Part shown: one piece after another, positions 23,893-26,092 of the stretch
Layout: every line of letters begins with the position of its first letter
Position numbering within the stretch: position 1 is the first letter of the stretch
Source: Natronobacterium haloterrestre
Lineage (GTDB): Archaea > Halobacteriota > Halobacteria > Halobacteriales > Natrialbaceae
Direction of reading: 5' to 3'
DNA length: 64,000 nucleotides
Assembly: GCF_900112205.1 (NCBI RefSeq)
Contig: NZ_FOKW01000008.1
Span: 62,001-126,000 of the forward strand
Made by a program: the position numbers and the translations under genes
Notes under the pieces: generated by a model
The model's input: only the letters and a program-made list of their open reading frames with translations
Databases searched by the model: none
What the model was told of the DNA's origin: nothing

Positions 23893-23939
23893 CGTGTCCG
23901 ACGTTCCGGTCGAGCGGTAGTCGTTTCACTATCTTTCTT

Positions 23940-24302
23940 CAAGGAGAGAATCCCGTCCTTCAGGACGGGCGTGAATCCGACACCGCCGACACAGTCCATG
24001 TTCGGTAACAATACGGATATTTAAGTAGAATCGCAACATAGTATGACGTACACCGAGGCGGCTACACCGCCCACTCAAATGCACAATATCGGGACTCCGA
24101 GACCCAGAACGTTCGAGACACCCTCTCGAACCGCTGTGGTGTCTCGGTCAAGATAACTCCAAGTCCCTTGCCGGGATAGGAGTAACGGCGGTGTGGCCCC
24201 GCCATCGGCCTGTCATGCCGACAGGTCGTGAACCAGCAAATATCCCAACTCAACGGCACGGTGCCGTGGGAAGACTCGCCGTTTACGGCGAGGAGGAGGT
24301 CA
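23940..24302 (+). mobile_element. IS200/IS605-like remnant without transposase
   Basis: A 363-bp stretch without a credible long gene. It opens with a hairpin CCCGTCC-TTCA-GGACGGG (23952-23969) and closes with ACTCGCCG-TTTA-CGGCGAG plus GAGGAGGTCA (hairpin 24275-24292), the kind of subterminal hairpins and right end seen at haloarchaeal IS200/IS605 and IS1341-type (tnpB-bearing) elements. Between them are more stems: GGCGG/CCGCC (24187-24203), CCTGTC/GACAGG (24209-24225) and ACGGCAC/GTGCCGT (24253-24267), resembling the scaffold RNA that overlaps the end of tnpB. No tnpA or tnpB codons are identifiable with confidence. Boundaries are approximate. Confidence 0.5.
24018..24027 (+). promoter_or_regulatory. 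Strong TATA-like element inside the IS-like remnant
   Basis: TATTTAAGTA is one of the best TATA matches of the window. About 22 nt on stands ATG (24043) that opens a 37-codon frame ending at 24156; the frame has no recognisable protein features. The promoter could instead drive an RNA across the downstream hairpins. Confidence 0.4.
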
Positions 24303-25442
24303 CTCTCCGGCGCTCGCCCCTGTCCCGGACCCAGTTCCTGCCCCAGTTCCGGCTCCGCTCTCGCCTTCCGCCGTCCCGTCGAGACGGCGACCGCCGCGTC
24401 GCGACCCCGGGCGTCCCGTCGGATCCTCGCCGTACCCGTTCACCCGGCTGAAGACGGTCACGCCCGCTTTGAACACCGCAAGCAGGACCGGGCCGAGGAA
24501 CAACCCCATGATTCCGAGCAGGTAGATGCCGCCGATAACGCCCACGAGGACGACCGCGGGATGGAGTCCCGATCCCCGGTCGACGAAGATCGCCCGCAGG
24601 TAGTTGTCGACCAGCGAGAGCGCGGTGATCCCGTACAGGAACAACACCGCGGCCTCGAGTAGCGTCCCCGTCGTCGCGAGATAGAGAACCGCTGGCCCCC
24701 AGATGAGCCAGACACCGACGGCGGGCAGGAACGAGGCGACGATCATCACGACCGTCCAGAACGCCACGTTCGGGAGTCCGAGCAGGTAGAACCCGAGCCC
24801 GCCGAGCAATCCTTCGACGAGCGCGACGAGGACGTGACTCCGAATCACCGCCCAGGTAACGACCTCGATCTCCGCGAAGAGTTCGTCGCGCACCTCGTCG
24901 GAGATCGGCACGACGGCCTCGATCCAGTCGATAAACGCGTCCCCGTCGACGAGCATGTAGTAGAGGACGAACACGAGGACCAGCAGTCCGACGCTCATCC
25001 GGATACTCGCGTTCAACAGCCGCACCAGTTCCATGAGGACGAGCTCGACGGCGTTACCGAGCGTATTTTCGATCTCCGCGAGGAGTTCGGCCTCGATCGA
25101 GGCGAGGACGTCTTCTTCGATTCCGGCCTCGAACGCCGCCTCGCGGAGCGCCTCGATCGCGGCCAGTTCGTCGAACGAATCCAGGTATCCGAAGACCGAC
25201 TGGAGGATGACGACCGAGAAGTAGAGGATCGGAACGACCGCGCCCGCGACCGCGAGGGCGGTGAGCACGATCGCGGCGAGTCGTTCGGGGACGCGTTCCT
25301 CGAGTCGCACCTGTGCGGGGTAGAGGACGAACGCGAGCAGCCCGGCCGCCAGCACGTACTGTAACAGCGGCGCGACGAGCAGGGCGGCGATCGTACCCAG
25401 GGCGACGAGCAACAGCCCGAAGAACGCGGTGCGGACGTCCAT
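24300..25442 (-). CDS. AI-2E-family permease (YdiK/TqsA-like)
   Basis: 380 residues with eight predicted membrane helices in the 2+1+4 layout of the family: two N-terminal helices (ALGTIAALLVAPLLQYVL, AAIVLTALAVAGAVVPILY), a long extracellular amphipathic region (residues about 95-160), and the C-terminal bundle (LLGGLGFYLLGLPNVAF, GVWLIWGPAVLYL, GIYLLGIMGLFLGPVLLAV). Archaeal members are also linked to Na+/H+ exchange; autoinducer export is not established. The C-terminal 45 residues are Gly/Thr/Ala-rich and end exactly at the right end of the adjacent IS-like remnant, whose GGTCA supplies the TGA stop. Confidence 0.85.
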   Translation of the reverse strand: MDVRTAFFGLLLVALGTIAALLVAPLLQYVLAAGLLAFVLYPAQVRLEERVPERLAAIVLTALAVAGAVVPILYFSVVILQSVFGYLDSFDELAAIEALREAAFEAGIEEDVLASIEAELLAEIENTLGNAVELVLMELVRLLNASIRMSVGLLVLVFVLYYMLVDGDAFIDWIEAVVPISDEVRDELFAEIEVVTWAVIRSHVLVALVEGLLGGLGFYLLGLPNVAFWTVVMIVASFLPAVGVWLIWGPAVLYLATTGTLLEAAVLFLYGITALSLVDNYLRAIFVDRGSGLHPAVVLVGVIGGIYLLGIMGLFLGPVLLAVFKAGVTVFSRVNGYGEDPTGRPGSRRGGRRLDGTAEGESGAGTGAGTGSGTGASAGE

Positions 25443-25627
25443 GGCCCGATGTGATCCGTCCAATACGTAAGTATTGACATTTCCTGCCGTCGACCGTGCC
25501 GCCGCGTTCGGTCGGTTGCCGATGGCCGGGACGCTACCGGGAGGAAATCGCGGCGAGAACGGGACCTCGAGCGCCACGACCGCGAACCGACGGCGAAACG
25601 GGAACGGGGCGCGACTCGGGTCGACGG

Positions 25628-26092
25628 TCAGTCCGTGCTCTCCGTCTCGACCGAGTCGAAGCGTTCGAACGCTTCCTCGACGTAGTCGCCCGTCTCGTCG
25701 ATGATCTCGGCCCACGCCTCGTTGTCCGGAGCGGTTCCGAGCAGTCGCGCGATCTTCATGATGGAGACGTGGTAGACGCGCTGTCGGCCCGGTTCTTCCT
25801 CCCAGACGATCATGTTACAGGGGAAGAGGCCGCCGATCTTCGGCGTTTCCTCGAGAGCCCGGTCCGCGATTTCGGGGTTGCACGCGCCCAGGACGTAGTA
25901 CGGGTCCCGATCGGCGTCGACTTTCTCGTTGAGCAGTTCCGAGGGCGAGAACTCGACGGGGATGCCGAACCCGACGTCCGTACAGACCTCGCGGACGTGT
26001 TCGATCGCCTCCTCGTGGTTCATCTCGAGGACGGCCTGTTTCTCTCCGTACTCCTCGGGGTCGATCGTCGCGGGGTCGATCGGGAGACTCAT
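25628..26092 (-). CDS. DUF302-domain protein
   Basis: 154 residues. The segment VLEMNHEEAIEHVREVCTDVGFGI, followed by YYVLGACNPEIADRALEETPKIGGLFPCNMIVWEE in pieces, is the DUF302 (TT1751-like) fold; members have an ACNP strand and a conserved Cys in FPCN. The function is unknown, though the fold is often linked with membrane or sulfur-related proteins. Start at MSLPIDP; the upstream frame is not conserved-looking. No operon partner within 150 nt. Confidence 0.83.
   Translation of the reverse strand: MSLPIDPATIDPEEYGEKQAVLEMNHEEAIEHVREVCTDVGFGIPVEFSPSELLNEKVDADRDPYYVLGACNPEIADRALEETPKIGGLFPCNMIVWEEEPGRQRVYHVSIMKIARLLGTAPDNEAWAEIIDETGDYVEEAFERFDSVETESTD

Follow-up and report, generated by a model that had tools for sequence, protein, structure and literature searches.

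A tnpB-free IS200/IS605-type mini-element as a candidate stand-alone guide-RNA transposon of haloarchaea

In the window, the 64,000-nt stretch of Natronobacterium haloterrestre DNA analyzed here, we characterized a 370-bp mini-element (PATE) on the plus strand that is complete, of the IS200/IS605 type, and protein-free (Table 1). We consider it probable that this element specifies a promoter-driven guide RNA that uses a resident TnpB in trans, and that the element itself is moved by TnpA in trans. This reading is drawn from the ends of the element, its mobility, its promoter-like and RNA features, the covariation in the RNA, the class match between core, ends, and TnpB, and the lack of tnpB. 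With somewhat less confidence, we favor the view that the element belongs to an old lineage of stand-alone guide-RNA transposons that spans the order. These would have their own promoter and 5' domain, lack tnpB, and live off resident TnpB and TnpA. Compensatory change in the pseudoknot of the guide RNA would adapt them to either of two end/TnpB specificities, CTATC-GTCAC or TTAC-GTCAA.

Ends, structure, and mobility of the mini-element

The initial annotation of positions 23940 to 24302 had described a left-end hairpin, a TATA element, a right-end hairpin, and further stems between them, with no transposase frame, and all of this was confirmed. The copies place its ends 6 bases further left and 1 base further right. 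With these copies and an empty site in the sister genome G081, the boundaries are certain to approximately 1 base. Subterminal palindromes are present at both ends and recur in the copies, without inverted terminal repeats. The palindrome of the left-end hairpin is retained in other copies, with differing letters.

Table 1. Features of the mini-element (window positions)
Feature	Position	Strand	Basis or role
Left flank motif CTATC	23929..23933	+	Transposase target; putative TnpB TAM by analogy
PATE, 370 bp	23934..24303	+	Ends from copies and the G081 empty site
Left-end subterminal hairpin CCCGTCCT-TC-AGGACGGG	23952..23969	+	
TATA box GGATATTTAAGT of the inferred promoter	24015..24026	+	Conserved beside a variable spacer, 53 copies
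5' RNA domain	24041..24149	+	Covariation; model R1, 142.6 bits on the window copy
Omega-RNA (sot) core	24150..24303	+	sot0042 match and helices in 48 copies
GTGGC in the loop of the second hairpin	24193..24197	+	Pseudoknot partner of GTCAC
Right-end hairpin CTCGCCGT-TT-ACGGCGAG, then GAGGAGGTCAC	24275..24292	+	
GTCAC	24299..24303	+	Transposon-encoded motif at the right end; one strand of the pseudoknot
Predicted guide, first ~20 bases of the right flank	24304..24323	+	Analogy with TnpB omega-RNAs

Three perfect hairpins (stem of at least 7 bp, loop of 3-5) were found in 23940-24302, compared with a mean of 0.061 in 1000 dinucleotide-preserving shuffles, none of which reached three. The plus strand of 24044-24303 folded with -118.8 kcal/mol (z = -5.98), and none of 200 shuffles was as low. 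Thus, the structure of the element is not due to chance. The list of open reading frames contained only short ORFs within the 370 bp and no transposase gene; in the other full copy of the genome, the frame starting from the ATG at 24043 is closed by a stop 7 codons on. On the minus strand, an ORF at 24300-25715 has its stop codon (24300-24302) inside the right end of the element. The neighboring genes presumably encode an NhaC-type antiporter and an AI-2E-type transporter.

The annotation had also called the element an orphan, which is contradicted by further copies in the same genome. A second full copy shows 88% identity. In addition, left-end sequence (89 bases) is present at two contig ends and right-end sequence (95 bases) at two others, at 99% identity in each case and with different flanks. 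On the simplest reading, these four contig ends are two more near-identical copies at which the assembly broke. In G081, the site is empty, and its flanks meet as CTAT followed by TCTCCGGCGCTCGCC (TCTCC); the window counterpart is CTATC-element-TCTCCGGCGCTCGCC, in which the C of CTATC is ambiguous, so that the precision is one base. There is no target duplication at the empty site; this site and the flank motifs counted in the copies (see below) show that insertion occurs beside a short, fixed target. The G081 empty site has the same 20 bases as the predicted guide, although it reads CTAT-T, not CTATC. For the copy at L002, the sister locus has 45 nt replacing the element plus flank and does not provide a further empty site, and no clean empty site was found for the flanks of L071 within its genus. 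Comparison of these sequences indicates that the element is mobile.

The 99% partial copies elsewhere in the genome and the empty site also bear on the proposal that the element is a decaying remnant of a single tnpB element, with neither mobility nor function. Its left end, CTATC flank, and omega core are indeed common to tnpB elements of the same genome. However, one architecture is kept over 93 copies, and the 5' domain is not tnpB sequence. A remnant is therefore very improbable, and we regard this proposal as largely refuted. The same word had been used in the initial annotation, whereas a family under maintenance is indicated by how the copies are conserved, covary, and are distributed.

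Extra palindromes are inserted in the near-terminal hairpins of L050, L056-L060, L068-L072, and others, and also of L162. These inserts are alike in mini-elements and a tnpB element (L162), and they resemble the SMR-A insertions in the available text of PMC3119063.

Conserved interior, promoter, and 5' RNA domain

Copies were aligned in several sets. The first alignment comprised 53 of 62 loci (query span of >230 nt), and set A1 is the 40 of those 53 left after removal of near-identical rows. R1 is a covariance model of the 5' domain. Set A2 combined 40 copies from the listed weaker R1 matches with 7 earlier loci, giving 46 distinct rows. The 93 copies referred to below are the 53 plus these 40, which were chosen by their 5' domain. 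Set A3 contains 48 of the 93 (both motifs found, at most 172 nt, nonidentical).

In the 53 copies, conservation in 15-nt blocks was 0.91-0.95 at 24089-24163 and 0.85-0.96 onward to 24283, and the interior is the most conserved part of the element. The terminal left end (23939-23968) reached 0.68-0.77, the adjoining 23969-23983 reached 0.91, and the flank 0.29-0.30; hairpin inserts in some copies depress the values at the ends. A loose TATA-like pattern was detected in 77 of 93 copies, and from its position in the window copy, an RNA is predicted to start near 24041-24047.

The first ~105 nt of such an RNA, upstream of the omega core, form a 5' domain unrelated to tnpB sequence. In its modeled helices, CCGA (24053-24056) pairs with TCGG (24089-24092) around a hairpin at 24057-24071, and a second stem (24097-24103 with 24141-24147) encloses an inner hairpin at 24111-24131. 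The closed hairpin of the domain carries a near-invariant CCGAGGCGG...CCGCC...AATATCGGG. The modeled pairs were formed in 93.8% of cells, compared with at most 53.1% when the pairing was slid, and the covariation score was 0.113 compared with at most 0.054. In the same test, nine pairs had double changes, hardly more than the eight found for each of the slides +1 and +2. In the divergent set (46 rows), 88.2% of cells were paired and the score was 0.425, compared with at most 0.155 for slides; this alignment was fitted to R1 and thus leans toward the model. Two helices of the domain were only 78.5-80.3% paired in this set.

RNAalifold favored an alternative stem, 24114-24122/24138-24146, which may compete with the modeled stem of the 5' domain. 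In the minimum-energy fold of the window copy, the region 24058-24069 pairs with 24187-24198, replacing the first hairpin. Owing to these two alternatives, the fold given here for the 5' domain is provisional. The domain is present in all 93 copies compared, 40 of which were selected by it.

We searched for a tnpB-bearing parent with the 5' domain and found none. Two loci were considered and rejected: in L155 (G080), the ends are ~1.1 kb apart, but L155 and L157 contain a different transposase-like gene, which we take to be of the IS1595 type. They are mini-elements that were interrupted or partly replaced by this other gene.

The conserved interior has to be weighed against a simpler alternative, in which the element is a MITE that needs only its ends, is moved by TnpA in trans, and carries its RNA-like interior as nonfunctional baggage from a tnpB element. 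The intact ends and the mobile copies agree with this alternative, and so does an element on the Halorubrum lacusprofundi plasmid NZ_KX906370, in which a promoter and start codon are fused to a tnpB end, showing that tnpB-deleted forms do arise. However, the interior of our element is more conserved than its terminal left end and its pairs covary; moreover, its pseudoknot matches the end class (see below), and TnpA would need little beyond the right-end hairpin. We therefore judge a MITE with a functionless interior to be improbable. The initial annotation had named a TnpB-less source of omega-RNA or reRNA and a MITE moved by TnpA in trans as two options; both gained support and fit together. 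In the plasmid locus L297 (790-1098; NZ_KX906370.1, pR1SE2), which is tnpB-deleted, promoter and start codon lie directly on the omega core, without a 5' domain.

Omega-RNA core and pseudoknot

A covariance search for an omega-RNA, which had been suggested with the first description, gave a match of Rfam RF02656 (sot0042) to 24151-24294 over the full model length (54.6 bits, E = 2e-13). This match is below the gathering score of 88, which was reached by nothing in the window or in 40 loci. The core does not lie at any tnpB 3' end, since the element is without tnpB. In 48 copies of both end classes, its helices were paired in 90.8% of cells, compared with at most 49.8% for slid pairings, and the covariation score was 0.214 compared with at most 0.076; one helix was weak (66.8% paired). 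The right-end hairpin was 93.2% paired in the 48 copies, and all seven counted pairs change on both sides in some copy. The pseudoknot between the GTGGC loop and the terminal GTCAC was paired in 97.9% of cells, also in the 48 copies.

HgcC RNA (Rfam RF00062) was tried as the right family and rejected: it matched 24184-24315 with 23.5 bits (gathering score of 50), with the 3' end of the match aligning to the right-end hairpin and GAGGAGGUCA. When used on 14 control genomes, the HgcC model had matches in 5, above the cutoff in 1.

Two end classes shared with tnpB elements

The ends of the 93 copies were combined as CTATC/GTCAC in 33, TTAC/GTCAA in 31, TTAC/GTCAC in 2, and CTATC/GTCAA in none; in another 5 of the 93, close left variants (TTATC, CTTTC, CTGTC) were paired with GTCAC, and the remaining copies were not callable at one end or both. 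Counted by left flank alone, there were 39 copies with CTATC, 34 with TTAC, the 5 variants with GTCAC, 2 with CTTTC and no called right end, and 13 that were uncallable. The pseudoknot pair switches between G-C and U-A with the end class (CTATC...GTCAC or TTAC...GTCAA). Among 94 copies (the 93 and one from NRC-1), 16 of which were not callable, the loop base and the last base of the element were G-C in 41, U-A in 30, and other in 7, a match in 71 of 78. Since copies within a class are related, the class switch may reflect few events.

We also scanned 54 tnpB loci for the scaffold. Fourteen rows matched, and because L125 repeats L120, 13 are distinct. The three tnpB omega cores with GTCAC have a G loop base and GACCAGCAAATATCCCA, and the 10 distinct cores with GTCAA have GGTTGGC. 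Mini-elements and tnpB cores thus share the class signature, and the core found in each mini-element is that of the TnpB class whose right end it has.

The genome contains 24 TnpB-domain matches and three Y1 transposases. The TnpB loci L129, L130, and L131 agree with the mini-element in their CTATC flank, left-end type, and omega core. A search for identical ends, likewise raised in the initial annotation, recovered the genomic copies as well as tnpB elements that are flanked by CTATC on the left and end in GTCAC, and the lack of similarity to any IS right end, which would have counted against the proposal, does not apply. Of the three TnpA loci of the genome, two carry TTAC close to their left end and the third has no clear motif, so that a use of CTATC was not evident at any of them.

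In L129-L131 and in the GTCAA-class TnpBs with the scaffold, there is no canonical RuvC-II Glu; a Glu is found before the TSK motif instead. This amounts to a correlated swap of the catalytic Glu in the scaffold-sharing TnpBs. Cutting by such partners is not assured, given the missing canonical residue. TnpB clades with a rearranged RuvC-II have been described, and inactivity is not presumed there, according to the accessible part of Nety et al. (PMC10278001). In L161, L162, L163, and other scaffold-sharing TnpBs, GDLS or SWPE stands in place of the canonical E-D-L.

The atypical RuvC-II is one of the points that would suit another role of the RNA, as a decoy, inhibitor, or other regulator acting via the 5' domain, either TnpB-bound or alone, instead of guiding cuts. 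None of the tnpB omega-RNAs seen has the 5' domain, which is conserved in the mini-elements, and in another species, tnpB mRNA inhibits cleavage, as stated in the portion of Nety et al. available (PMC10278001). Nevertheless, the scaffold is kept to the last base and adjoins unique flank, as a guide needs. We consider a purely regulatory RNA unlikely.

Spread across haloarchaea

Some match to the element was found in 110 of 125 genomes of the family, many being short end or tnpB-type matches. An exact 30-mer of the element occurs in 11 stretches (Halorubrum species, Halarchaeum acidiphilum, and brine MAGs). In the plasmid collection, nine records have at least 80% of the element in one place, with no gene annotation over it among the rows listed. 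R1 matched in 77 of 293 genomes and in 46 of 87 genera of the order; across the phylum, 25 of 392 genomes had matches, all 25 inside the same order.

The architecture was the same throughout the 93 copies. The 71 copies with both ends called have lengths of 342-527 nt and are thus too short for tnpB. Similarity to TnpB (39 query proteins, E up to 1e-6) was detected in the fetched flanks of 1 of the 93 copies. In this copy (L101, TTAC class), the TnpB frame begins at residue 136 directly at the right end, which suggests that the element was inserted in a tnpB gene. Halobacterium salinarum NRC-1 harbors a full-length copy of the TTAC/GTCAA class on pNRC200 (NC_002608.1:267907-268286), with no annotated gene and a 5' domain of 60.3 bits. 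In the phage collection, the TTAC class had no match and the window class had one 59-base left-end match.

At L014 (1180-1693; G000 contig C8, 246219-246732), close to the end of the contig, the 5' domain was matched weakly (30 bits) upstream of an omega-like core. Such loci, of which G051 has six (model positions 13-111), may represent a third subclass that is more divergent. Some part of the query L223:1365-1745 was matched by 22 Klebsiella plasmid records.

Proposed mechanism and implications

In the guide-RNA reading, the TATA promoter would start an RNA near 24041-24047 that contains the 5' domain and then the complete omega-RNA scaffold. Transcription would continue across the right end, and the ~20 flanking bases nearest to it would serve as guide. 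A Y1 transposase (TnpA) encoded elsewhere would move the element. At a resealed empty site (CTATC plus guide), a resident TnpB of the matching class, loaded with the RNA, would cut, and repair from a chromosome copy still holding the element would restore it (homing). Transcription, TnpB loading, guide position, cutting, homing, and the acting TnpA are the inferred parts of this scheme. Haloarchaea are often polyploid, which would favor repair from another genome copy.

If this is correct, a guide RNA that serves a Cas12-like nuclease can act as a selfish element in its own right, for which other loci supply the transposase and the nuclease. Such elements would be natural guide RNAs without coding constraint, and guide and nuclease would evolve as separate genes outside CRISPR. 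The pNRC200 copy of NRC-1 makes the guide-RNA reading directly testable. The reading would also offer a reason for the transposase-free PATEs outnumbering IS605-type elements in Haloquadratum (177 versus 99 and 194 versus 118, in the available text of PMC3119063).

Comparison with known systems

PATEs, and a PATE as a noncoding RNA, are already published. Stand-alone omega-RNAs of IscB have been reported. Our literature search, which covered mainly open-access papers, found no family of guide-RNA elements that lacks tnpB and has a 5' domain of this type. HgcC RNA (RF00062) bears a weak likeness, below the gathering score. A PATE-like element with a tnpB end in Halanaerobium appears in the part of PMC7290912 accessible to us.

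The closest expression evidence concerns HRTV-DL1, a Halorubrum virus. The PATE of this virus and its host is likewise tnpB-free and palindrome-ended, and it is reported, in the text available of PMC10544981, as strongly transcribed in virus and host and as a likely noncoding RNA. R1 gave at best 7.1 bits on the HRTV-DL1 PATE, which has no detectable 5' domain, so its expression is indirect support only. The same available text describes the transcript as antisense to an ORF, and this ORF has the orientation of the omega-RNA; taken literally, this does not fit a guide RNA in the omega direction. It further refers to Gomes-Filho 2015, where a PATE RNA of Halobacterium is said to be active, and part of the guide-RNA picture of PATEs may already be known through that work.

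The sot family has been equated with omega-RNA, and in H. salinarum omega-RNAs, the second hairpin loop forms a pseudoknot with a transposon-encoded motif (PMC12558985, accessible part). With the tnpB sot/omega-RNAs of RF02656 and of that text, our element has in common the helices, the right-end hairpin, the pseudoknot, and a 3' end at the right end. In contrast to them, its RNA has its own predicted promoter and an extra 5' domain and does not lie at a tnpB 3' end.

The PATEs of Haloquadratum walsbyi have the same near-terminal, IS605-related palindromes without inverted terminal repeats, and they likewise show no target duplication, are too short for a transposase, and are moved in trans (PMC3119063, as far as its text was available). 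Many of them are core deletions, and no guide RNA is described in that portion of the text, whereas the element analyzed here has a conserved RNA interior with a 5' domain, a putative promoter, and an order-wide spread.
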